64,000 bases of DNA from a virus: positions 1 through 64,000 of IMG/VR virus record IMGVR_UViG_3300026078_000024. The stretch is one strand, 5' to 3'. A program made the translations under genes and the position numbers. A model generated the notes under the pieces. It had not been told where the DNA came from, did no database searches, and saw nothing but the letters and a program-made list of their open reading frames with translations. Shown piece after piece: positions 15,802 through 63,128 of this stretch (position 1 is the first letter of the stretch; the number at the start of each line of letters is the position of its first letter).

Positions 15802-15817
15802 GATCCCTCCTAGGTCG

Positions 15818-15891
15818 TGGTCCCGGTCGGACTCGAACCGACGCGGACGGAGGTTAAGAGCCTCCCGCTCTGCCAACTGAGCTACGGGACC
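15818..15891 (-). tRNA. tRNA-Lys(CTT)
   Basis: Complete cloverleaf on the minus strand: 7-bp acceptor (GGTCCCG/CGGGACC), D-arm GCTC..GAGC, anticodon stem GGAGG/CCTCC with loop CTCTTAA (anticodon CTT), T-arm GTCGG-TTCGAGT-CCGAC, discriminator A. CCA is not encoded. It reads AAG, the favoured Lys codon in a GC-rich genome. Confidence 0.95.
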
Positions 15892-16193: not shown

Positions 16194-16232
16194 GATCGTG
16201 ATTCCTTTCGGTCGGTTGTCGATCGTGGTGGG

Positions 16233-16305
16233 TGCCCGCAGAGGGATTCGAACCCCCGGCCCCCGCGTCCGTAGCGCGGCGCTCTGTCCTCTGAGCTATG
16301 CGGGC
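16233..16305 (-). tRNA. tRNA-Arg(ACG)
   Basis: Complete cloverleaf on the minus strand: acceptor GCCCGCA/TGCGGGC, D-arm GCTC..GAGC, anticodon stem CCGCG/CGCGG with loop CTACGGA (anticodon ACG, which after A-to-I editing reads CGN), T-arm GGGGG-TTCGAAT-CCCTC, discriminator A. The 73-nt length is normal. Confidence 0.95.
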
Positions 16306-48815: not shown

Positions 48816-49052
48816 ATGGACTTTCTGACGTGGTGCCGGTCGAGCGACCGGTGGCGTTCGCATGCATGGGCCAATGATCGTCGTGTCCGGCTGCCCGCAG
48901 ACACCCCCGAGACCCGGGAGGCGTACGAGGAGACCTTCGTCTCCGCCGGGTACGGCGGATACCTGCACCGGCTCGCGGAGGAGACGGTGCACACCGGGTC
49001 GTCCGCATGGGCGGAGTACGTCACGGCCATGGGTGCGGAGGGCGGCTCATGA
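48816..49052 (+). CDS. Hypothetical protein
   Basis: 78 residues (MDFLTWCRSSDRWRSHAW; ETREAYEETFVSAGYGGYLHRLAEE). Start has GGAAAGGCAAGATCACC upstream. ATGA overlap with the polymerase fusion. Function unknown. Confidence 0.7.
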   Translation: MDFLTWCRSSDRWRSHAWANDRRVRLPADTPETREAYEETFVSAGYGGYLHRLAEETVHTGSSAWAEYVTAMGAEGGS

Positions 49053-52000
49053 CCACGGATGCGGAGATCGCTCAGCAGAACGGTCATGTGGAGGGGGCTC
49101 AGGAGAGGGTCCTCGACGCCCTCGGGCACCCGTTCTCCCCCGAGTCGCTGCGAGTGCTGGCGGAGTCGGCGATCACACCGGAGACGGCGGCACGGTACGG
49201 GATCACCGCCGTGGCGGATCCCGATCACATCCCTGACGAGATCTTCGGATCGTGGCACGCGTTCCTCGGCGAGGCCGAGACCGGCATGATCTTCACCTGG
49301 CGGGACACCGACCGGGAGATCCCTCAGTACCGTCCGGACGTGGCGGTGCAGACGCCGGACGAGAAGATCCACAAATACCTCGTCCCGCGCGACTCCGGCA
49401 CCTTCCTCAACCATCTGCGGAACCCCGTCGGCCCGGACGACCCGGTGTTGTTCGTGGAGGGGTCGAAGCAAGGCGTGGCTGCGGCAGCGTGGGCCCCGGA
49501 GGGGTGGGGGGTTGTGGCGGTACCCGGGTGCAACAACTGGGTCGGCACAGACCTCTCATGGGCCGACGGCCGCAAGGTGATCATTCTCTTCGATGCGGAC
49601 TTCACGTCGAACCGTGACGTGTACGACGCGGCAGCCGGGCTGAAGGAGGCGCTGGAGGTCGAGGGCGCGGCGGAGGTGCGGTTCGCGCATCTCGCCGGGG
49701 CACGCAACAAGGACGGTCTCGACGACGTTCTCGGACGGCGGCCGGAGAACCGGCGGACCCTGTACATCGAACGGATCGCCGACATGGCGGCCGACCGTCT
49801 CGGACGGCGGCCCACCCGTTCCGTGCGCGCATCCGCGTATTTCGACGAGAAGGGCCTGTTGGCCCGGACGTCCGCCCTCACCGTTCTCGGCAATCAACCG
49901 GCGGCCCTCGCGGACGGATCCATGATCGCTCTGTACCGGGACGGCGTGTACCGGATCGATCTCGGGGACGAACCGCTGATCGAACAGGTCAAGGATCTCC
50001 TGGGTGAGGACTACCGGCCCGCGCACCGGAAGACGATCGAGGAATATCTCGTCGGCGAGCTGTCCGGTCGAAACCTCCGGGTCGGGCAGAGGTCCACGGA
50101 ACCGCTCCTGAACACCGCGTCGTGCATGATCGACCTCCGCACCGGCGAGGTACTGGATCATGATCCGAAATACCTGAGCACGTTGCAGATCCCGGTCCCG
50201 TGGGTGCCGGACGCGGCGTGTCCGACGTACGAGGCGTGGCTTGAGGACGTGATCCCCGGCCAGGCCGAGGCACTGGAGGAACTCGCGTCCACGATGCTCG
50301 ACCCGTCCCGGACGCCCTTCAAGGCGGCGTTCCTCTACGGGCCGACGCACTCCGGCAAGTCGACGTTCCTGCGGATCATGGAAGCGGTCGCGGGTGCGGC
50401 GAACCGGTCGGCCGTCGATCTCCACCAGCTCGTCGATGATCATTTCATGTCTGCCGAGCTGTATCAGAAGATCTTGAACATCGGGTCCGACATGTCAGCC
50501 GCCCACATCTCCGACGTCTCCCTGTTCAAGAAACTCACCGGCGAGGACCCGGTGCAGGCGAACCGGAAATACGGCCGGACGTTCACCTTCACGAACCGCG
50601 CCCTGTTCGCCTTCTCCGCAAACGAGATCCCCACCGTCGGCGAGACCTCCCGGGCGTACGTGCAACGCATGATGCCATTCCACTTCTTCAACTCGTTCGC
50701 CGGTAACGAACGGCCGGAAATTGAAGAGCGGATGCTCCGCGAGGAACTCCCGGGGATTCTCCGCCGCTGGGTCTCGGCGTGGCGCCGGTTCTCCGAACGC
50801 GGGATCTACCTACCGGTTCCGGAGGACGTGCAGACGGAGTTCGAGACGTCGAGCGACCGAGTCGCCCGGTGGGTGCAGCTCCGGTGCGACGTGCACCCCG
50901 AGGCAATCGGGCAGATGGTCGGCGCGGACAAGGGAGAGACGATCTCCGCTCTCTACTCCTCATTCAAGATCTGGGCGAGGGAGGACGGACCGGCAAACGT
51001 CATGTCACGGCAGAAGTTCTCGGAGCGTCTCCGGCGCATGGATGGGGTCGGGGAGGTACGTCTCGCGCACCGGAACAAGAACCGGGGTCTGAACATCACC
51101 ACGCGGACCGGAGAGGACCGGGAGATCGTTCATGTCCGTTCTGCCCCAGTGACTGACGGAGATGACCGGAATGCCCCGGTGACTGACGCGGATGACCCGA
51201 AGGCTTCCGGTACTGACGGAGATGACCGGAATGCCCCGGTGACTGACGCGGACGCACCAAATGAACCGGTGTCTACCAAGAACGTACGGAATGACAGCAA
51301 TGTCGGTGTCCGTTCTGCCCCAGTCTCTACCGGAAACGTGACGGTTCGTCCCGGTGTGGGTGTGGGTGGTGTTGGTCGAACCCCGGTAAAGGGCATAGCA
51401 GTGGTTCAGAACAAGATCAACGATCTTTCCTCTGAAACTCCCTCATGGACCGAATTCTCTGATAAGACCCACACCGCCAACACCGCCCAGGTCAGAGATG
51501 GTTCTTATACTCACACCGAAGTCACACCCCCCAGGTCAGGGGCCACACCAAGACCCACACCGGGGCAAACCGGTACATCTCCGATAGACACTGGGGCAAA
51601 ACCGGACACCCCCGCTCCCGCGCCCCCCGACAAGACAGGACCGGCCGTGACTTCGAAAACACCCACACTTCCCACACCCCCCAGGTCAGAGCACTGCCCC
51701 GACCCGTTCGCCGACCACACCCCGCCTCCGTCCGCCGTGCCGGTGGGTCTCGACCTGGAGGCATGGGACGCGGAAGATCTCTTCCGTCACGACACCCCGG
51801 TCCTCGGTCCGTACGTCCGTCTCGTGGGTGCCGGTCCGGTCGGAGACGTGGCCACCGGTCGCGCGGAGGTTCTCGAACGCATCCGGGGAGACAACCCGAT
51901 CGTGGGCGTGAACCTCGCCCTGTTCGATCTCCCCGCCCTTGACGTGCACGAGGGGATCCCGGTGGAGGAGACGATCCCCCGGGCGCATGACATCCGGTTC

Positions 52001-53464
52001 GTGGCATTCCAGGACGACCCGCCGACGAGTTACGAGACGAAAGCCGGGCCGCATTACAAGCACTACAACCTGGAATCGCTCGCCAATCGGTATCTCGACG
52101 ACCACAAGTCGGATCTCGGAAAGGCACTCGCCAAAGAATACGGCGGGTGGGGACATATCGCGTACGAGGACGCGCGGTATCACGACTACTGCCGGGACGA
52201 CGTAAACAAGGCTCTCCGTCTCGCGGACGTCCTCCCCATGACCGACTACGACCGGCGGGAAATGCGCGTGGCCGCGATCCTGGCGCGCGCGTCCATCGAG
52301 GGGTTCCGGGTGGACGTCCCGGCCCTCGAACGGCGGATCACGGAGCAGGCGGAGCAGACGGCCGCCGGTCGGCAGATGCTCCACGACCGGTTCGGGTTCC
52401 CCACCCACACCGCCGACGGGAAGAACGTTTCGAAGGCCCCGCAACGGACGGTGGCGGGGAAGAGGGCGTTCGAGGAGGCGCTGAAGTCGTTCGGTGTGGA
52501 TCTAGGTGACTGGCCCCGTGGCAAGGACGGGTCCCTCTCCCTCGGCAAAGAGATCATGGCCGAGGCGATCGTGTGGGCGGAGACGGAGAACCATCCCGCC
52601 CTGGCGATCATGAAGGCGGTCGCCGAGATGAACGGCCTCCGCTCGAACGCGGCCAACATCATGCGGTGCGTGGTGGGGGACCGGGTCCACCCGAGGTTCG
52701 AACCGTTCCAAGCGTTCGGCCGGTGGTCGGTCACCGAGCCGGGCCTGACGGTGCTCAAGAAGAGCTACGAGGACTCCGACCGGATCTTCATGCTGCCCGA
52801 CCCGGGCGAGGCTCTCGTGTCGTTCGACGCGGACCAAGTGGACATCCGGTGCGTGGCGTTCCACTCCCAGGACCCAGGTCTCCTCGCGATCATGCAGGAC
52901 CCGGACCGGGACATCCACTCCGAGATCTCCGATCTCGCGTTCGGCGATCATGAACCCGATCACCGGTTCCACGCCAAGTCGTGCGACCTGGGATGGCTGT
53001 ACGGCCGCACCGTCAACGGTCTGGCCAACACCCCGGGGATCACCCGCGAGGCGGCCGAACGGGTGGACATGACGATGCGGACGCAGTTCAACTCCGTGCC
53101 GGACTGGCAGCATGACGTGCGGCGGGCGGCAGAGGGCCGCGCGTTGCTCGACAACGGGTTCGGGAGGCACTTCCGGTGCGACGAGGGCAGGGAGTACACC
53201 CAGGCACCGGCGGGACACGGTCAGTCGATGACACGGGACGTGGTGGCCGAAGGACTCCTGCGCATGAAGGACCGGCACCCCGAACTGATCCCCCGTCTCC
53301 GCGTCGTCGTCCATGACGAGATCGTGATGTCCATCCCCAGGGCTGATCTTGAGGACGTGAAGCGGGCGGTGATCGAGGATATGACGATCGAACGGGGCGG
53401 CGTGCCGTTCACGTGGGGATCTTCCCCCGCCGGAGACAACTGGGCCGAGTGCTACAAGAAGTGA
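49049..53464 (+). CDS. Primase-helicase-exonuclease-DNA polymerase A fusion
   Basis: 1,471 residues from the ATG that overlaps the previous stop. (i) Residues about 20-260: TOPRIM-like DUF3854 domain, Glu137 in LFVEGSKQG and Asp182/Asp184 in LFDAD. (ii) About 350-690: D5/SF3 helicase, Walker A GPTHSGKST (431-439), then FSANEIPTV (sensor). (iii) About 693-895: low-complexity linker of VTDGDD-type repeats, Pro/Thr-rich. (iv) About 898-1080: 3'-5' exonuclease, Asp902/Glu904 in DLEAW, VNLALFDLPAL and YHDYCRDDV. (v) About 1090-1471: PolA palm/fingers, Asp1260 in SFDADQVD, motif B RFHAKSCDLGWLYG, motif C His1422-Asp1423-Glu1424. Normally these activities sit in two or three genes. The frame is uninterrupted, so all catalytic residues are in one chain and a replisome-in-one is likely. 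Confidence 0.92.
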   Translation: MTTDAEIAQQNGHVEGAQERVLDALGHPFSPESLRVLAESAITPETAARYGITAVADPDHIPDEIFGSWHAFLGEAETGMIFTWRDTDREIPQYRPDVAVQTPDEKIHKYLVPRDSGTFLNHLRNPVGPDDPVLFVEGSKQGVAAAAWAPEGWGVVAVPGCNNWVGTDLSWADGRKVIILFDADFTSNRDVYDAAAGLKEALEVEGAAEVRFAHLAGARNKDGLDDVLGRRPENRRTLYIERIADMAADRLGRRPTRSVRASAYFDEKGLLARTSALTVLGNQPAALADGSMIALYRDGVYRIDLGDEPLIEQVKDLLGEDYRPAHRKTIEEYLVGELSGRNLRVGQRSTEPLLNTASCMIDLRTGEVLDHDPKYLSTLQIPVPWVPDAACPTYEAWLEDVIPGQAEALEELASTMLDPSRTPFKAAFLYGPTHSGKSTFLRIMEAVAGAANRSAVDLHQLVDDHFMSAELYQKILNIGSDMSAAHISDVSLFKKLTGEDPVQANRKYGRTFTFTNRALFAFSANEIPTVGETSRAYVQRMMPFHFFNSFAGNERPEIEERMLREELPGILRRWVSAWRRFSERGIYLPVPEDVQTEFETSSDRVARWVQLRCDVHPEAIGQMVGADKGETISALYSSFKIWAREDGPANVMSRQKFSERLRRMDGVGEVRLAHRNKNRGLNITTRTGEDREIVHVRSAPVTDGDDRNAPVTDADDPKASGTDGDDRNAPVTDADAPNEPVSTKNVRNDSNVGVRSAPVSTGNVTVRPGVGVGGVGRTPVKGIAVVQNKINDLSSETPSWTEFSDKTHTANTAQVRDGSYTHTEVTPPRSGATPRPTPGQTGTSPIDTGAKPDTPAPAPPDKTGPAVTSKTPTLPTPPRSEHCPDPFADHTPPPSAVPVGLDLEAWDAEDLFRHDTPVLGPYVRLVGAGPVGDVATGRAEVLERIRGDNPIVGVNLALFDLPALDVHEGIPVEETIPRAHDIRFVAFQDDPPTSYETKAGPHYKHYNLESLANRYLDDHKSDLGKALAKEYGGWGHIAYEDARYHDYCRDDVNKALRLADVLPMTDYDRREMRVAAILARASIEGFRVDVPALERRITEQAEQTAAGRQMLHDRFGFPTHTADGKNVSKAPQRTVAGKRAFEEALKSFGVDLGDWPRGKDGSLSLGKEIMAEAIVWAETENHPALAIMKAVAEMNGLRSNAANIMRCVVGDRVHPRFEPFQAFGRWSVTEPGLTVLKKSYEDSDRIFMLPDPGEALVSFDADQVDIRCVAFHSQDPGLLAIMQDPDRDIHSEISDLAFGDHEPDHRFHAKSCDLGWLYGRTVNGLANTPGITREAAERVDMTMRTQFNSVPDWQHDVRRAAEGRALLDNGFGRHFRCDEGREYTQAPAGHGQSMTRDVVAEGLLRMKDRHPELIPRLRVVVHDEIVMSIPRADLEDVKRAVIEDMTIERGGVPFTWGSSPAGDNWAECYKK

Positions 53465-55166: not shown

Positions 55167-55277
55167 ATGAAGGTGTGCTGCCCCAACTGCCACAGCGAGG
55201 ACGTGAAGGCATCCCCGTCCGGCACGATCTTCCGGTGTCTCGCGTGCCTCTACTCGTGGGTGGTGGCACCGGCATGA
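55167..55277 (+). CDS. Zinc-ribbon micro-protein (36 aa)
   Basis: 36 residues: VCCPNCHSEDVKAS and FRCLACLYSW give a classic CxxC...CxxC rubredoxin-like Zn ribbon. ATGA overlap with the nuclease gene. Could be a Zn-ribbon partner of that nuclease. Confidence 0.65.
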   Translation: MKVCCPNCHSEDVKASPSGTIFRCLACLYSWVVAPA

Positions 55278-55741
55278 GGGCGCGCCGTGCCGAGCACCCG
55301 GGGATCACGTTCCGGTCCAAGCTCGAAGCCCAGTGGTCGGCGATCTTCGATGAGATGGGGTGGACATGGGAGTACGAGCCCGTCCGGTTCGATCTTCCGT
55401 CCGGGATCTACATTCCCGACTTCAAGATCCGCCCACGGGCCGGTGATCCGTTCTGGGTGGAGATCAAAGGACCATGGCCGAACGCCCGTGAGTTCGAGGT
55501 GGCGACGGAAGTCAACATCTACGCACAGACTCCGTTGATCATTCTGTCCGGAGACGTGCCACGGCAGATCAACGGCGGCACGGCGTGGTGGTTCGACCCG
55601 GCAACCGACCGGTGGTCCATGCTGCGCTCCGAGGAGGGCCTGATCCGGGTGTTGTGGCCGGACGCGGCCGACCGGCCGGAACGTCTCGCCGGGTGGGATG
55701 ACGTCCTGGAGAACGGACGCCGGGCGGAGATCATCACATGA
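55274..55741 (+). CDS. PD-(D/E)XK nuclease
   Basis: 155 residues. TFRSKLEAQWSAIFDEMGWTWEYEP is the phage endonuclease start helix; YIPDFKIRPRAGDPFWVEIKGP has the Asp and the Glu-x-Lys of the nuclease core. Similar to phage/Vsr-like single-domain nucleases. It may cut host or unmodified DNA; it sits just upstream of the DNA-modification operon. Confidence 0.87.
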   Translation: MRARRAEHPGITFRSKLEAQWSAIFDEMGWTWEYEPVRFDLPSGIYIPDFKIRPRAGDPFWVEIKGPWPNAREFEVATEVNIYAQTPLIILSGDVPRQINGGTAWWFDPATDRWSMLRSEEGLIRVLWPDAADRPERLAGWDDVLENGRRAEIIT

Positions 55742-56148: not shown

Positions 56149-56351
56149 ACAATCCTTCGGATGTTCTTCCGAACAAAGAACTGAAGGCACTGGCGGCACA
56201 TCACCGCCGGTGCCTTCTCTGCCGCTATCTGTTCGGGTGCCGTGTCTCCGACCGTCTCCTCACCGCATATCATCACTCCGTTCACATCCCCATGGAGGCG
56301 CCCGGTGCTCCGGTTCCTGCGGTACGAGAAGATCCCCCTCGACGAGCTTGA
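56145..56351 (+). CDS. Small Cys-containing protein
   Basis: 68 residues, ATGA overlap with the previous gene. RRCLLCRYLFGCR may form a Cys site. Its last 47 bases overlap the start of the ParB-TGT gene, so the C-terminus is uncertain. Confidence 0.5.
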   Translation: MNNPSDVLPNKELKALAAHHRRCLLCRYLFGCRVSDRLLTAYHHSVHIPMEAPGAPVPAVREDPPRRA

Positions 56352-57690
56352 TCTCTTCCCCGGCAACGCGAACGTCGGCAACGTCCCGGCGATCGTGGAG
56401 TCCTTGATCGAGAATTCACAGTTCCGCAGTCTGATCGTTCGCGAGGTGGACGGGCGGCACGTGGTCATGGCCGGGAACCATACGAAGCTGGCCATGGTCG
56501 AACACGGCGCACAGCTCTGCGACCGGGCGCGGCGGCACGCCGAGAACCCGGACGACAACCCTGCGTGCGGCCTGTGCGTGGACGATCAACCGTTCGACGG
56601 TCGGCCACGGTGCGAGATCTACGAATGCGACGACGACGATGCGATCAAGGTCAACGTCGCGGACAACCGGATCCAGGAGTTCGGGCACCGGGACGATCAG
56701 CTTCTGGCCGACCAGCTCGGCACGTTGGAAGATCTCGCGGGCACCGGTTACGACTACCACGACTACGAGTCGATCACGCACCGCCTCTTGGAGGGCAGCT
56801 ACATAGATCAGCAGACGGCGGAGGTACTGGCCACCCAGGAACCGGTGAGCGCCCCGGAGCCGGGAAGCCAGGCACCACCCGACCCCCCTCGGGTCATCTC
56901 CCGCACCGTCCCCCTCGACGCCATGTTCTGTTGCCGCTACAACTCGATCTCCCTCGCGGCGTACGAGATGGGTTTCCTGCCCGGCATGATCTCGTCCAAG
57001 ACCGATGCCTGGCGCAAGATCCTGGACCGCAACCCAGGCATCCGTATCGGTCTCATGGACAACGACTGGCACGACTACGATCATGCCGCGCACATCGCCG
57101 GGGTGACGGAGGCGAAACCGAAATACGCCACGGTCCGGGACGTCATGACCAAGGCGCAGTGCGAGGCGGCCGGGGTGGAGTTCTTCCCGGTCGAACAGAT
57201 CCTGGACATGGCGGCCGAGGTCGCGGAACACGCCGACCACGTGATCGTGATCCCGAAGTACGACTGCCTTGACAAGATCCCCGAAGAGTACGTGATCGGG
57301 TTCTCCGTGCCCACGTCCTACGGCGGTACCCCCATGCCCGCCTCGATGCTCCAAGGACGCCGGGTCCACCTCCTCGGCGGATCATGGAAGAACCAGCGCG
57401 CGTTCCTGGAGATCCTCGGCGAGGACGTGGTGTCTCTGGACAACAACCACGTCTTGAGGATCTGCGAGTTCGGGAACTTCTCGTTCCCCGACGGGTCCAC
57501 GTCCCGTCTCGCCAATCTCGACCCACGGATGCCGCGCACCTGGCAGGCCGCCGCGATCTTGTCTCTTGCCTCCATCCGGGACGAACTCAACGCCCGGTAT
57601 GCGGCAGGGATCACGTCGGCGGCCGACGAGGTGCCGGACGTGACGGAGTACGTGCACGACGATCAAGAGGACAACGAGGAGACGGAATGA
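56305..57690 (+). CDS. ParB-like domain fused to DpdA/TGT-like DNA transglycosylase
   Basis: 461 residues from the GTG at 56305 (GGAGG six bases upstream). Residues 1-75 look like a ParB N-domain: RYEKIPLDELDLFPGNANVG, VREVDGRHVVMAGNHTKLAMVEHG. Residues about 197-440 resemble phage DpdA-type guanine transglycosylases: LMDNDWHDYD around Asp252, VIPKYDC, GFSVPTSYGGTPMP (about 333) and VHLLGGSWKNQRAFLEILG (about 354). It would swap guanine in DNA for a deazaguanine made by the neighbouring enzymes. The ParB half may give DNA recognition or positioning. It leads the queF-queC-queD-queE-folE genes, all overlapping. Confidence 0.82.
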   Translation: MLRFLRYEKIPLDELDLFPGNANVGNVPAIVESLIENSQFRSLIVREVDGRHVVMAGNHTKLAMVEHGAQLCDRARRHAENPDDNPACGLCVDDQPFDGRPRCEIYECDDDDAIKVNVADNRIQEFGHRDDQLLADQLGTLEDLAGTGYDYHDYESITHRLLEGSYIDQQTAEVLATQEPVSAPEPGSQAPPDPPRVISRTVPLDAMFCCRYNSISLAAYEMGFLPGMISSKTDAWRKILDRNPGIRIGLMDNDWHDYDHAAHIAGVTEAKPKYATVRDVMTKAQCEAAGVEFFPVEQILDMAAEVAEHADHVIVIPKYDCLDKIPEEYVIGFSVPTSYGGTPMPASMLQGRRVHLLGGSWKNQRAFLEILGEDVVSLDNNHVLRICEFGNFSFPDGSTSRLANLDPRMPRTWQAAAILSLASIRDELNARYAAGITSAADEVPDVTEYVHDDQEDNEETE

Positions 57691-58079
57691 CCAAGGTTCT
57701 CGGAGAACGCACGAGCGCCCCGATCAAGGCGGCGGATCTCGACGTGATCGACGTCGACAACCTCGCCCGGCCGGTGCGCTACACCACCAAGGAGCTGAAC
57801 GCCCTCTGCCCGGTCACCGGCCAGCCGGACCAGTACGAGGTGATCATTCAGTACGACGCGCCGGGGAAGACGATCGAGTCCAAGTCCCTGAAGCTCTACC
57901 TCTGGTCGTTCCGGGACCGGGGGATCTTCGCGGAGGATCTCGCCGCGACGATCGCGAAAGATCTCTGCAAGGCGTTGCGGTTCCCGGTCCGGGTGCATCT
58001 CACGCAACAGGTCCGGGGCGGGTTGGTCCTGGAGGTCGACGCGTTCGGAGAACCGGTCATGGGGAGTGACGACGTATGA
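57687..58079 (+). CDS. queF: QueF-like 7-cyano-7-deazaguanine reductase
   Basis: 130 residues, unimodular size class. The catalytic thioimide Cys41 (NALCPVTGQPDQ) and Asp48 are spaced as Cys55/Asp62 in the Bacillus enzyme. ESKSLKLYLWSFRDRG (from Glu64) is the NADPH motif. The following FHED of QueF is here FAED: Ala82 at the His96 position, Glu83 retained. So the fold, substrate covalent site and cofactor loop look intact, but one catalytic residue is missing. The enzyme may be slower, use preQ0 differently or release an intermediate. ATGA/overlap links it to the TGT fusion and to queC. Confidence 0.85.
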   Translation: MTKVLGERTSAPIKAADLDVIDVDNLARPVRYTTKELNALCPVTGQPDQYEVIIQYDAPGKTIESKSLKLYLWSFRDRGIFAEDLAATIAKDLCKALRFPVRVHLTQQVRGGLVLEVDAFGEPVMGSDDV

Positions 58080-58759
58080 AGGCGATCATCTGTTTCTCCG
58101 GCGGGATGGACTCCACCGTCCTCGCCACGTCGTACCTCCACCAGGGGTACAAGCTGGGCCTGTTGTCGTTCGACTACGGGCAACGCCACAAGGCGGCCGA
58201 GCTGGCGGCCGGTGCGCGCGTCGCCGGGTATCTCGACAACCTCGGCATCGCGCCCGTGTCCCGCCAGGTGGTCGATCTCGGGGTCCTCGGGGATCTCCTC
58301 CCCGGTTCCGCGTTGACGGATCCGGAGGTCGACGTGCCGGACGGGCATTACGCGGCCGAGACGATGCGCGCCACCGTGGTCCCGAACCGCAATGCGATCA
58401 TGGCGAACATCGCGATTGGGGTTGCGTCGGCGGTGGAGGCGGACGTGATCGCCCTCGGGATGCATGCCGGGGACCACGCGATCTACCCCGACTGCCGACC
58501 CGAGTTCGTCCGGGCGTTGCGTCAGACCATGGTCCACGCCCTCAAGGGGTTCCACACCCCGCGTCTCGACACGCCGTTCATCGGCATCAGCAAGACCAAC
58601 ATCGCCCGCCTCGGGGACACCCTCGGCGCGCCGGTGCATCTCTCCTGGTCCTGCTACAAGGGCGGCGATTTGCACTGCGGCACCTGTGGCACGTGCACAG
58701 AGCGCAAAGAGGCGTTCAAGGACGCCGGTGTCCATGATCCGACGGAGTACCTGGCGTGA
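58076..58759 (+). CDS. queC: QueC, 7-cyano-7-deazaguanine synthase
   Basis: 227 residues. The PP-loop SGGMDS is at 8-13 (ATP binding). LLSFDYGQRH follows. The Zn site is Cys193, Cys201, Cys204, Cys207 in SCYKGGDLHCGTCGTC. Converts 7-carboxy-7-deazaguanine to preQ0 in two ATP-dependent steps. ATGA overlap with queF, GTGA with queD. Confidence 0.95.
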   Translation: MKAIICFSGGMDSTVLATSYLHQGYKLGLLSFDYGQRHKAAELAAGARVAGYLDNLGIAPVSRQVVDLGVLGDLLPGSALTDPEVDVPDGHYAAETMRATVVPNRNAIMANIAIGVASAVEADVIALGMHAGDHAIYPDCRPEFVRALRQTMVHALKGFHTPRLDTPFIGISKTNIARLGDTLGAPVHLSWSCYKGGDLHCGTCGTCTERKEAFKDAGVHDPTEYLA

Positions 58760-59133
58760 GCTACACGATCTGCAAGACGTTCCGGTTCGAGGCCGCGCAC
58801 CAGTTGCACGGCCTCCCGCCGGACCACCAGTGCGCCCGGATGCACGGCCACTCCTACCGGATCGACCTGGAACTCACTGAGTTGGGTGCCGAGTTGGACT
58901 ACCCCGGGTTCGTGGTCGACTTCGGGCGCCTGAAGCCGTTCAAGGAGTGGATCGACAAGACCCTCGATCACCGCGTCCTGAACGAGATCCTGCCGGTCGA
59001 ACCGACAGCGGAGAACCTCGCCGCATGGATCTTCTCCGTGGTCGAGATCGCCCTCCCGGAATGGATCTCCGGCAAGGTCGCGGCCGTGAGGGTCCACGAG
59101 ACCGAGACATCCTGGGCGGAGTACCGGCCGTGA
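58756..59133 (+). CDS. queD: QueD, 6-carboxy-tetrahydropterin synthase
   Basis: 125 residues, GTG start. Zn ligands His15, His30 and His32 in FEAAHQL and ARMHGHSY; catalytic Cys26; LDHRVLNEI and PTAENLA-type catalytic loops are present. Makes 6-carboxy-tetrahydropterin from 7,8-dihydroneopterin triphosphate, the FolE product. Confidence 0.95.
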   Translation: MSYTICKTFRFEAAHQLHGLPPDHQCARMHGHSYRIDLELTELGAELDYPGFVVDFGRLKPFKEWIDKTLDHRVLNEILPVEPTAENLAAWIFSVVEIALPEWISGKVAAVRVHETETSWAEYRP

Positions 59134-59777
59134 GGCCCGACTCCGTGGACAAGATCGTCGTCCAGTACTTCGGTGCCGTGACGGCGCAGCGGTTCGAGTA
59201 CCGGGGCGTGGTGCACGACGTGCCGCGCCTCACCGTCTCCCCCGGCCTCCTGCGCGGTTACACCTGCCCGGCCGGATGCGGCGGGTGCTGTCCCCGCTTC
59301 TCGTTGGACTACCTGCCGACCGAGACGCGGCCGGACGGCACCACGCCCCGGATGATCGACTTCAACGGGTACCAGGTGGAGATCTTCTCGGATCTCCAGG
59401 ACGACCACCGTTCCGACCGCTGCCGGAACCTGATGCCCGACGGCCGGTGCGGCATCCATCCGGTCCGCCCGTTCTCGTGCGACTTCGAGCTGATCCGGTT
59501 CATGGCCCGGCCGGGCACGGCGCACATGAATCAGCGCCTGTTCTCCCGTGGGTGGAACATGAAGCGCACCGACGGCGGCCGGGGCGCCAAGTGCGAGATG
59601 CTCCCGGCCGACCCGTCCACCGTGGCGGACGTGATCCGTAAGCTCGGCCGTCTGGCGGAATGGGCCGACCACTTCGGGATCTCCACCCGCACCGGCCTGA
59701 TCGTCGACTGGGTGGAGAAGATCAAGGACGATCCCATGTCGGCCGACAACCTCGTCCTTCCGGGGAGGTCGCGGTGA
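59130..59777 (+). CDS. YkgJ-family Cys-cluster protein inside the deazaguanine operon
   Basis: 215 residues, GTG start overlapping queD; the stop overlaps queE (GTGA). CPAGCGGCC (Cys46, 50, 53, 54) and then DRCRNLMPDGRCGIHPVRPFSC DFE are the two Cys groups of the YkgJ/Fe-S- or Zn-chelating family (PF03692-like). The C-terminus is helical. YkgJ proteins often act in modification or maturation of metal-containing or methylated targets, but no reaction is established. Its place between queD and queE, in all likelihood co-translated, points to a tailoring or assembly step of the deazaguanine base. It is the least explained gene of the operon. Confidence 0.8.
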   Translation: MRPDSVDKIVVQYFGAVTAQRFEYRGVVHDVPRLTVSPGLLRGYTCPAGCGGCCPRFSLDYLPTETRPDGTTPRMIDFNGYQVEIFSDLQDDHRSDRCRNLMPDGRCGIHPVRPFSCDFELIRFMARPGTAHMNQRLFSRGWNMKRTDGGRGAKCEMLPADPSTVADVIRKLGRLAEWADHFGISTRTGLIVDWVEKIKDDPMSADNLVLPGRSR

Positions 59778-60529
59778 GCTACCAGGACAACCACGACACC
59801 GTGACCCCGTCTCTCGTCGTCTCGGAGATCTTCGGGCCGACCGTGTCCGGCGAGGGCGCGACGTTGGGGCGCCGGTGCGGCTTCCTCCGCCTCATGGGCT
59901 GCAACCTTCACTGCACGTGGTGCGACACGGCGTACACCTGGGATGCGCGCCGGTTCGATCTCGTCGCGCAGGGCCACCGGATGACATGGCCGGTGATCGT
60001 GGAGCAACTGATCGCGATGAACGTCGACCTGGTGATCGTCTCCGGCGGAGAACCTCTCCTCCACCAGGACCAGCGGGCTTGGGAGTTGATCCTCCGCTCC
60101 CTGACCGGCGCCGGTATCGGGGTCGAGGTCGAGACGAACGGTACGAAGATCCCGAACCAGGCCAGCCGGGACTTCGTGCGCCGGTTCACCGTCTCCCCCA
60201 AGCTGGCGCACGCCGGTGATCCCGAGTCGGCGCGCATCGTGCCGGAGGCGATCGGTGCCTTTCGGCTGATCATGGACCAGCTGGGTGAGTGGAAGGACAG
60301 GGTGATCTTCAAGTTCGTGTGCGCCACCCCGGAGCACGTGGCCGAGGTGCAGCGCTGGGTGAAGATCTTCCAGATCAGGCCGGAGTGCGTATGGATCATG
60401 CCGGAGGGCGTCGACACTCCGGCCTTGTGCGATCATCTGGCTGTGATCACGGATCCTGCCGTGGCTGCCGGGTTCAACGTCACGACCCGCCTCCACATCC
60501 ATGTGTGGGGCGACGAAAGAGGCCACTGA
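59774..60529 (+). CDS. queE: QueE, 7-carboxy-7-deazaguanine synthase (radical SAM)
   Basis: 251 residues, GTG start. ReadsVVSEIFGPTVSGEGATLGRR then Cys43, Cys47, Cys50 in GCNLHCTWCDT for the [4Fe-4S] cluster; SGGEPLLHQD is the SAM-binding GGE motif. Catalyses ring contraction of 6-carboxy-tetrahydropterin to CDG. Coupled to the YkgJ-like gene. Confidence 0.95.
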   Translation: MSYQDNHDTVTPSLVVSEIFGPTVSGEGATLGRRCGFLRLMGCNLHCTWCDTAYTWDARRFDLVAQGHRMTWPVIVEQLIAMNVDLVIVSGGEPLLHQDQRAWELILRSLTGAGIGVEVETNGTKIPNQASRDFVRRFTVSPKLAHAGDPESARIVPEAIGAFRLIMDQLGEWKDRVIFKFVCATPEHVAEVQRWVKIFQIRPECVWIMPEGVDTPALCDHLAVITDPAVAAGFNVTTRLHIHVWGDERGH

Positions 60530-60531
60530 TC

Positions 60532-61167
60532 ATGTGCACTGACGCCTGTTCCGAGATGCATACCTACATCCCCGGTTGTGATCTCTCCGTGGGTTTCGCC
60601 GCGCCGACGGCGGCCGACATGTTCCGCGACGGCATGCGCGGCATGTTCTCGTACCTCGGTCTCGACCCGGACGGCGAGGAACTGGTGGACACCCCCGGCC
60701 GGTGGATCCGGGCCATGGAAGAGTTCACGCAGGGGTATCAGGAAGATCCCGGTCGGATCCTGGAACGGACCTTCCCCGTGGCCCGGTCCGGCGCGGAACC
60801 AATCGGCGTGTCCCATATCCCGTTCACGTCCATCTGTGCCCACCACCTGTTGCCGTTCTCCGGCACGGCGATGATCGCCTACATGCCCGGCGAGGGTGAC
60901 CGGGTGGTGGGTCTCTCCAAGCTCCCGCGTCTTCTCGACGCGTTCGCCCGACGTCTCCAGACCCAGGAACGGATCACGGTGCAGATCACCGAAGCGATCG
61001 ACAAGCATCTGTCGCCCCGGGGTGCGGCGTGCGTGATCCGGTCCGAACACGGGTGCCTCGCGCACCGGGGAGCACGGAAGCCCGGCGCGGTCATGGTGAC
61101 CTCGTCCTTTACGGGATACTTCAGAGATCCGGACCGTCGGCGGGAGCTTCTCGACCTCATGCGGTGA
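60532..61167 (+). CDS. folE: FolE, GTP cyclohydrolase I
   Basis: 211 residues. DTPGRWIRAMEEFTQGY, the Zn site SICAHHLLPF (Cys102, His104, His105; usual form CEHH) and SEHGCLAHRGARKPG (Cys175). Converts GTP to dihydroneopterin triphosphate, entry step of the pathway. With QueD, QueE and QueC it makes preQ0 de novo, independent of host queuosine genes, which streptomycetes often lack. Confidence 0.94.
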   Translation: MCTDACSEMHTYIPGCDLSVGFAAPTAADMFRDGMRGMFSYLGLDPDGEELVDTPGRWIRAMEEFTQGYQEDPGRILERTFPVARSGAEPIGVSHIPFTSICAHHLLPFSGTAMIAYMPGEGDRVVGLSKLPRLLDAFARRLQTQERITVQITEAIDKHLSPRGAACVIRSEHGCLAHRGARKPGAVMVTSSFTGYFRDPDRRRELLDLMR

Positions 61168-61791: not shown

Positions 61792-61930
61792 AGACGATGC
61801 GGCGGCCCGGCGGAAAGACGAGAACGGTTCATGGGGCGTGATCGTCATGTGCGACACCGAACAGCAGCAGATCGAGCTGCTCCAGCGCATGATCGACGAA
61901 GGCCGGGTCGTCCGCGCCCTGATCAAATGA
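61772..61930 (+). CDS. Hypothetical protein (52 aa)
   Basis: 52 residues, overlapping the previous gene by 20 bases and ending in ATGA shared with the GNAT gene. MSRPLSEDDAAARRKDENG, then WGVIVMCDTEQQQIELLQRMIDEG. Small alpha/beta protein, probably related to phage proteins with a D-T-E-x-Q-x-x-I pattern. Unknown. Confidence 0.6.
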   Translation: MSRPLSEDDAAARRKDENGSWGVIVMCDTEQQQIELLQRMIDEGRVVRALIK

Positions 61931-62457
61931 CCGGGTTCACGTGGCACCGGTCGACCGGCCATCCATTCGTCCCGTTGTGCATTCACAAGATCGACCGGTC
62001 CCTGTGGCCCATGTTCTCCCGCCACCACTACCTGAGCGCCGATATCAACTCCTCCGCACAGTGTTACGGCGGGTTCATCGGGGAAGATCTCGTGGCGTTC
62101 ATGGCGTACATCCATTTCCCCCATCCCAAGGTCCGGAACATCAAACGCGGGCATCGCACCGTCGTCCTCCCCGACTTCCAAGGGCTCGGGATCTCCGGGG
62201 TCATGGCGGAAACCATCGGCCAGATGCTGCACGATCAAGGCTTCCGTTACCGGCGCGTCATCGCCCACCCGGCAGTGATCTCCTACTGCTCCCGGTCACC
62301 GCGTTGGAGGGAAACCACCAACACCTCTCGCAAGGTTCCTGACCGGCCGACCGGAGACAGGTGGAGTGTGGCGGGAGAACGGACCCCGGTGAAACGGATC
62401 ATCGATCCCCGCGTCCTGTCCATGAGATCGTTCGAGTATGTGCCGGTGATCAGGTGA
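61927..62457 (+). CDS. GNAT-family acyltransferase
   Basis: 176 residues, ATGA start. FSRHHYLSADINSSAQCYGGFIGEDLVAFM, then HRTVVLPDFQGLGISGVMAETIGQMLHDQG, where QGLGISG is the acetyl-CoA pyrophosphate loop. Coupled to an ABC-type ATPase. GNAT proteins of this shape in phages include Mom-like DNA modifiers, but the target here is unknown. Lies next to a DNA-modification operon, so DNA is a fair hypothesis. Confidence 0.75.
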   Translation: MTGFTWHRSTGHPFVPLCIHKIDRSLWPMFSRHHYLSADINSSAQCYGGFIGEDLVAFMAYIHFPHPKVRNIKRGHRTVVLPDFQGLGISGVMAETIGQMLHDQGFRYRRVIAHPAVISYCSRSPRWRETTNTSRKVPDRPTGDRWSVAGERTPVKRIIDPRVLSMRSFEYVPVIR

Positions 62458-63128
62458 AGAGGGACATCGAGGTCTTTACGGAGATCAACGTCACGCCCCG
62501 GGTTCTCCAGGTGTCCGGCATGTTCGACGTCCCGGCGTCCGGCAGGGTCACCGCCCAGTGGAGTGTGGATCTTCCCATCGAGGACCGTGAGTGGAATGTC
62601 GGTCTTATCGTCGGCCCGTCCGGTTCGGGCAAGTCGGTCATGGCGCGCACATTGTTCCCCGAGGCGACCCGTGCCGTTCATTCCTGGGACGACCGGGCCC
62701 TTGTCGACTGCTTCCCTCCCGGTATGGGGATCAAAGACGTGGTCGGCCTCCTCACCTCGGTGGGTCTCGGTTCTCCCCCGGCGTGGATACGCCCCTACCG
62801 GACCCTCTCCACCGGTGAGGCGTTCCGCGCCTCCGTCGCCCGTACATTGGCCCAGGCCGAGGGAGTGTGCGTGGTGGACGAGTTCACGTCCACCGTGGAC
62901 CGGCAGGTTGCGAAGATCGCCAGTCATGCGATTCAGAAGACAGTGCGGCGGCGCGGCCAGCAACTGATCGCCGTCACCTGCCACTACGATGTGATCGACT
63001 GGCTTCAGCCGGATTGGATCTACGACACCGGAACGTCACACGCGGCACTCGGCGGAGAAGATCCGGCGGTCATTGAGAAGATCAACCCCACCGGCCCGTG
63101 CGTCCACCAGACAAGGATCTCCTCATGA
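62454..63128 (+). CDS. ABC-type ATPase paired with the GNAT protein
   Basis: 224 residues, GTG start coupled to the GNAT gene. LQVSGMFDVPAS, then Walker A GPSGSGKS (54-61), the Q-loop region, LSTGEAFRASVARTLAQ (signature-like), Walker B VCVVDEF (Asp142, Glu143) and the switch His in TCHYDVIDW. No transmembrane partner is encoded nearby, so a soluble ABC ATPase. Such soluble ATPases appear in restriction and modification loci. Proposed partner of the acyltransferase. Confidence 0.82.
   Translation: MKRDIEVFTEINVTPRVLQVSGMFDVPASGRVTAQWSVDLPIEDREWNVGLIVGPSGSGKSVMARTLFPEATRAVHSWDDRALVDCFPPGMGIKDVVGLLTSVGLGSPPAWIRPYRTLSTGEAFRASVARTLAQAEGVCVVDEFTSTVDRQVAKIASHAIQKTVRRRGQQLIAVTCHYDVIDWLQPDWIYDTGTSHAALGGEDPAVIEKINPTGPCVHQTRISS

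Follow-up and report, generated by a model that had tools for sequence, protein, structure and literature searches.

Results

A seven-gene operon that begins with a ParB-DUF6610 fusion

We analysed a stretch of 64,000 nucleotides (hereafter the window; 65% GC), which is part of the IMG/VR virus record IMGVR_UViG_3300026078_000024 of 92,877 bases. Seven genes on the + strand, between positions 56305 and 61167, form a compact operon in which five junctions are 4-nt overlaps and the last is a gap of 2 nt, as a first-pass annotation of the sequence had indicated. They encode, in this order, a ParB-DUF6610 fusion, QueF, QueC, QueD, a CxxCxxCC protein, QueE and FolE (Table 1). The first gene (461 aa) has a GTG start preceded by GGAGG, and its product joins a ParB/sulfiredoxin-like domain to a DUF6610 domain that, as argued below, is very likely a DNA base-exchange enzyme. 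The first-pass annotation named six of the functions, and family matches confirmed that FolE, QueD, QueE and QueC are present as a set for the synthesis of 7-cyano-7-deazaguanine (preQ0); the seventh gene, encoding the CxxCxxCC (YkgJ-like) protein, had been left undescribed.

Table 1. Coordinates of the operon features in the window and the family matches that identify them
Feature	Position	Strand	Match
ParB/sulfiredoxin-like N-terminal domain of the fusion (residues 1-186)	56305..56862	+	phrog_723, E 3e-27
C-terminal DUF6610 domain, proposed DNA guanine transglycosylase (DpdA-like barrel), candidate catalytic D252 and D379	56863..57690	+	PF20314, E 7.5e-38
QueF-like nitrile reductase (preQ0 to preQ1)	57687..58079	+	PF14489, 5e-15
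QueC, 7-cyano-7-deazaguanine synthase	58076..58759	+	PF06508, 5e-57
QueD, 6-carboxytetrahydropterin synthase	58756..59133	+	PF01242, 1e-31
CxxCxxCC (PF03692, YkgJ-like) protein, proposed preQ1 N-methylase or other tailoring enzyme	59130..59777	+	PF03692
QueE, radical SAM 7-carboxy-7-deazaguanine synthase	59774..60529	+	PF04055, 1e-9; phrog_2076, 5e-56
FolE, GTP cyclohydrolase I	60532..61167	+	PF01227, 5e-55

The suggestion that the second gene encodes a QueF-like enzyme was also upheld. Besides its match to PF14489, the protein reached 76 bits with TIGR03139 (1.6e-21), which is under the 86.9-bit cut-off of that model, and Cys41, Asp48, the E64xK66xxK69xY71 residues of the ESKSLKLY motif and Glu83 are invariant across seven relatives. 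Since QueF retains the catalytic Cys, Asp and Glu together with the ESKSLKLY motif, a modification at the level of 7-aminomethyl-7-deazaguanine (preQ1) is expected. Mass measurements have identified a preQ1-level base in HVTV-1, Dp-1 and a Vibrio phage with QueF.

The DUF6610 half is predicted to fold as a TGT-like barrel

With 130.6 bits against a Pfam gathering score of 27, the C-terminal half of the fusion is a clear member of DUF6610. The first-pass annotation had described it as a domain related to tRNA-guanine transglycosylase (TGT) and DpdA. The fusion to ParB proved real and a TGT-like fold was predicted, but the family is DUF6610 and not the classical TGT/DpdA one: neither PF01702 nor phrog_887 nor phrog_7068 matched the fusion protein, while the controls were positive.

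An AlphaFold2 model was built from a 19-sequence alignment, made of the window protein and its counterparts at 18 other loci. Its mean predicted local distance difference test score (pLDDT) was 82, and within the barrel (residues 201-430) most ten-residue blocks lay between 82 and 98, with one at 76. Eight predicted strands alternate with helices (205-209, 225-229, 250-252, 274-276, 312-315, 330-334, 354-357 and 375-379), and the invariant residues D252, D279, P317-C321, S334/S338, H355-G359 and D379 sit at or just past strand ends in the model; D252 ends the third strand and D379 the last. In triose-phosphate isomerase (TIM) barrels the active site lies at the strand ends, and the catalytic Asp pair of Zymomonas mobilis TGT is formed by D102 and D280. 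D252 and D379 are invariant in all rows of the 19-row alignment and the same invariant residues are found in gp69 of the halovirus HVTV-1. The predicted fold and the conserved strand-end residues look catalytic.

The comparison of fold proposed in the first-pass annotation was made with Foldseek, and it placed TGT chains among the best PDB matches of the predicted TIM barrel: near the top were ParB-CDP (6sdk, E 4e-4) and the TGT structures 6rkq and 2z1w (E 7e-4, probability 1.0). Taken alone, this TGT match is suggestive. Among viral models, the best relatives were a full-length ParB/sulfiredoxin protein (4e-34) and a halovirus DUF6610 protein (2e-13), followed by proteins annotated as queuine ribosyltransferases in Arthrobacter phage Mufasa8 (E 1e-5, TM-score 0.54) and Sulfolobales virus SBRV1 (E 1.7e-4).

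DUF6610 genes lie beside deazaguanine genes

A tblastn search of 50,697 phage records found the DUF6610 half in haloviruses (HVTV-1, HF1/HF2, HRTV and others) and full-length fusion homologs in mycobacteriophages Rinkes and Knocker, where they are annotated only as ParB. For the collection of loci (numbered L001 and onwards) the conserved core served as the query, the whole eight-sequence alignment being too diverse. This gave 21 viral and 3 genome loci, or 19 distinct ones once near-identical contigs were removed. By BLAST, at least one of QueC/D/E/F, FolE, YhhQ and QueT lies beside the fusion in 18 of the 19; the YhhQ and QueT genes of L002 and L003 were confirmed by Pfam. In the nineteenth, L028, a PF03692-type region is part of the same open reading frame (ORF) and a YhhQ-like ORF stands just upstream. 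QueF, present in 25 of the 50,697 phage records, is found beside 9 of the 19 DUF6610 loci. These counts are not strictly independent events, although the loci come from Streptomyces, Chloroflexota, Peptococcaceae and varied metagenomes.

ParB profiles matched 16 of the 19 rows of the structural alignment. As to the other three, L032 is cut by a contig edge, L026 has its ParB in a separate upstream frame, and L035, which has no ParB, adjoins a methyltransferase. Two of the loci have unusual architectures. In L026 (2-1228) ParB and DUF6610 are in-frame with one stop codon between them, representing either two genes or an interrupted fusion. In L028 (7170-8759), and also in L029, a single ORF downstream of the YhhQ-like one holds a CxxCxxCC-type region together with a ParB domain of reduced length and DUF6610. 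This arrangement may have arisen by deletion, or it may be a fusion that naturally couples tailoring with insertion.

The ParB head precedes a DNA methyltransferase in a related phage

The N-terminal half of the fusion was assigned to ParB by phrog_723, by its family profile, which matched Spo0J/Noc/ParB chains at 5e-8 and weaker, and by the ParB-CDP match of Foldseek; PF02195 did not match this domain. A related phage, L004, is colinear with the window, with about 70-75% DNA identity on both flanks. At the same locus (L004 5885-7483) a ParB head with 50% identity over 160 residues precedes an N4/N6 DNA methyltransferase (PF01555, 2e-35), and no deazaguanine genes were found between this head and the next shared gene. 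Because the methyltransferase takes the place of DUF6610 behind the same head at the same locus, the comparison of sequences suggests that the ParB head serves DNA modification in general and is shared by different DNA modifiers. ParB heads on DNA methyltransferases are already known, and what ParB does when fused to DNA modifiers is an open question (PMC12783734). A small nuclease-like ORF of the window (55175-55741, weak DUF790 match) is kept beside the ParB locus in L004, with 62% identity.

A ParB gene also adjoins dpdA in relatives of Rosebush, in Mufasa8 and in phiSM (DpdA, ParB), and in bacteria the partner of DpdA is DpdB, a ParB-superfamily ATPase (PMC12839542, PMC6392294). Because a separate ParB or DpdB accompanies DpdA in phages and bacteria, the fusion looks, by analogy, like both partners in a single chain. 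The bacterial Dpd system resembles it in pairing a transglycosylase with a ParB-superfamily partner, but differs in that the two are separate proteins, that DpdB is a ParB-like ATPase and that a restriction module is attached (PMC12839542, PMC6392294).

Comparison with known viral clusters

The operon shares its gene order and single locus with Rosebush-type mycobacteriophages, represented here by Bananafish (ParB, DpdA, QueC, QueD, QueE, FolE), in which, unlike in the window, ParB and a classical phage-type DpdA are separate and both QueF and the CxxCxxCC gene are lacking. Mufasa8 has the same order including QueF (DpdA, ParB, QueF, QueC, QueD, QueE, FolE), again with a classical DpdA and ParB as separate genes and no CxxCxxCC gene. 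In both, the DpdA and ParB pair occupies the place that the fusion has in the window. In Rinkes and Knocker, gene 1 encodes a full-length ParB-DUF6610 homolog (35-36%) and belongs to an operon with QueF, QueC, QueD, QueE and FolE; the CxxCxxCC gene is present in Knocker as well. Funsized shows the same gene order, and its gene 1 is taken to be ParB-DUF6610 from gene size and order. These three phages differ from the window by an extra classical DpdA and by a gene 1 annotated only as ParB.

HVTV-1 gp69 has the same Pfam domain as the fusion, and its gene stands directly after FolE inside a preQ0/QueF cluster with the same biosynthetic genes. It differs in having no detected ParB domain, in belonging to an archaeal virus and in its low identity (23% overall). 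A paper by Cui et al. in 2023 is said to have named a fourth DpdA class (DpdA4) specific to archaeal viruses, which we presume to be the DUF6610 family of HVTV-1 gp69. About 30% of G in HVTV-1 DNA is present as dPreQ1, and a 2019 survey, which reported no viral DpdA there, suggested a host enzyme (PMC6884629).

The features by which a phage 7-deazaguanine cluster is recognised, preQ0 genes and a transglycosylase at one locus, are both found in the window, the transglycosylase being assigned by its predicted fold and its context.

The CxxCxxCC protein is a candidate for tailoring of preQ1

The fifth gene encodes a protein, which may correspond to DpdM, of a family with eight invariant Cys. All 15 members scanned matched PF03692 (best 9.8e-8). 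Relatives occur in Knocker and Pan1 (53%), phiSM (42%) and Vibrio schizotequatroviruses (32%), and at 11 of the 15 viral loci Que genes lie no more than about 6 kb away. The gene shares its locus with QueF/DpdA in Knocker, Pan1, phiSM and the majority of the viral contigs. The model of the protein is of good quality (pLDDT 87, predicted TM-score 0.85), and its comparison with the PDB gave no fold match (best E 0.95).

FliB, the flagellin lysine methylase, acts on a primary amine, and preQ1 bears a primary amine. By analogy, the chance that the CxxCxxCC protein methylates the preQ1 amine is about even. phiSM reportedly carries methylated preQ1, which would fit a methylase. The similarity of the protein to FliB is confined to the Cys motifs and weak by hhalign (E 0.004), and the FliB model NF038110 of NCBIfam did not match it; FliB itself scores just 0.0067 with PF03692. 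We therefore treat the FliB-like cysteine pattern as a lead only. These weak similarities, together with the eight invariant Cys and the annotation of PF03692 as metal-chelating and nothing more, agree as well with an iron-sulfur or zinc helper, for example for QueE, or with an oxidoreductase that acts on the base after its insertion, and we give this alternative a substantial chance, somewhat short of even. The helper role is opposed by genomic context: in phiSM and Pan1, which are unrelated phages, the gene adjoins QueF and DpdA, and there as in several contigs it tracks these two and not QueE, which points to tailoring after preQ1; moreover, some preQ0 clusters with QueE are devoid of it (Rinkes, Mufasa8, L001).

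Host and other features of the window

Among annotated sequences, those nearest to the window's long primase/polymerase ORF are from Streptomyces phages, and the closest homolog of the fusion was found in a Streptomyces griseocarneus contig; for these two reasons a Streptomyces-like host is likely. The primase/polymerase ORF (49007-53464) is a single ORF of 1485 aa that combines a D5-type primase-helicase (DUF3854, D5_N, DUF5906) with a family A DNA polymerase, whereas these are two genes in the nearest Streptomyces phages; L004 aligns to it as one unbroken BLAST segment. Downstream of the operon, an ABC-ATPase-like protein (61831-62457) and an acetyltransferase-like protein (62361-63128) match the N-terminal and the C-terminal half of phrog_11143 (357 aa), respectively, and since they match opposite halves, a single protein has probably been split here and its halves rearranged. 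Two tRNA genes, Lys (CTT) and Arg (ACG), lie on the minus strand at 15817-15891 and 16231-16305. A foreign base composition was considered as a sign of recent transfer of the cassette and gave no signal (65.9% GC against 65.3% for the window). PADLOC found no matches among the window proteins.

Discussion

Several observations weigh against reading the fusion as a transglycosylase and the operon as a DNA-modification system. The Foldseek E-values for TGT are modest, with aldolases, which are also TIM barrels, close behind at 3e-3. By hhalign, DUF6610 had no significant match to profiles of TGT and DpdA (E 0.41 with the profile built from 30 TGTs); Pan1 phage DpdA, a known one, is likewise weak against the TGT profile (E 0.006), and in the non-significant DUF6610 alignment D379 falls on the TGT nucleophile and the hairpin that follows it on GTVFTSDG. 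The TGT zinc motif CxCxxC...H is absent: one Cys (C386) comes after D379, and no such motif is conserved in the 19-row alignment. In the ParB half, the Arg of the GxxR-type motif is replaced by Thr (GNHT). The proposed methylation of preQ1 draws on linkage, chemistry and one earlier paper. Finally, in Rinkes, Knocker and Funsized a single operon holds both the fusion-type gene 1 and, as gene 3, a separate classical DpdA; one possibility is a pair of enzymes that differ in target motif. By predicted fold and by context, then, the DUF6610 domain is TGT/DpdA-like, yet by sequence it does not qualify for that family.

The separate DpdA in these mycobacteriophages and the lack of a significant profile match to TGT could also mean that the fusion is a mere accessory, comparable to DpdB, and that the exchange is carried out by another enzyme of the host or the phage that our searches missed, as the host DpdA offered as inserter for HVTV-1 would illustrate (PMC6884629). 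We looked for such an enzyme. PF01702 was insufficient alone for this purpose, since the Rinkes DpdA gives no Pfam match; phrog_887 does find it, and this served as positive control. No phrog_887 DpdA was found in 13 viral DUF6610 contigs (several of them short fragments), in HVTV-1, in HF2 or in the contig of L001, which gave a weak phrog_7068 match of 14.8 bits. The 92.9-kb record contains no second DpdA or TGT detectable by PF01702, phrog_887, phrog_7068 or the Rinkes DpdA as query, in keeping with the description of the operon as self-contained in the first-pass annotation. Five contigs (L002, L003, L020, L023 and L040) have a transporter and the fusion only, so that the fusion is the sole candidate for base exchange seen there. 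Given these searches, and a predicted fold whose conserved strand-end residues look catalytic, we regard a purely accessory role as unlikely. Because of its predicted TGT-like barrel, its kinship with HVTV-1 gp69, its linkage to Que genes and the lack of any other DpdA in the record, the DUF6610 half is very likely the base-exchange enzyme.

That the operon feeds queuosine precursors to host tRNA and leaves DNA unmodified, a role that would need the same biosynthetic genes and has been raised for phages devoid of DpdA (PMC6884629), is highly improbable, as its first gene has a DNA-associated ParB domain with a close relative that in L004 precedes a DNA methyltransferase at the corresponding locus, and as related ParB and DpdA operons modify DNA (dPreQ0 at 28% of G in Rosebush, PMC6884629).

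We consider it quite probable that the operon equips the phage for 7-deazaguanine modification of DNA, working as follows. FolE, QueD, QueE and QueC would convert GTP into preQ0, which QueF would reduce to preQ1. The DUF6610 half, acting as a DpdA-type transglycosylase, would cleave the glycosidic bond of guanine in DNA and insert the 7-deazaguanine, the sugar being held on an aspartate for which D379 is the candidate, with D252 as acid/base. The ParB half would bring the enzyme to DNA or license it, perhaps with a nucleotide, a role that would fall elsewhere to the separate ParB beside DpdA. The CxxCxxCC protein would then tailor the base, with methylation of the preQ1 aminomethyl group as the most likely change. 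Phage DNA that contains the modified base would resist restriction, and protection of the phage genome against restriction enzymes is the probable benefit.

Phage 7-deazaguanine modification is known; what would be new here is an unrecognised class of base-exchange domain on an exchangeable ParB head, together with an uncharacterised tailoring gene. In its fullest form the proposal is that DUF6610 is a class of zinc-less DNA guanine transglycosylases that occurs widely in bacterial phages and escapes current TGT and DpdA models, that ParB is an exchangeable recruiting head for unrelated modifiers, and that the CxxCxxCC protein methylates preQ1, giving methylated preQ1 in phage DNA. We advance this combination tentatively, the balance being rather against all of its parts holding at once.

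For phage biology, the CxxCxxCC gene offers a testable candidate for the tailoring step on preQ1, and the swap between ParB-methyltransferase and ParB-DUF6610 gives a direct handle on the role of ParB fused to DNA modifiers, the question posed in PMC12783734. Phages annotated as carrying ParB and a domain of unknown function, including contigs that lack biosynthetic genes and hold only a precursor transporter, can now be read as likely DNA-modifying.

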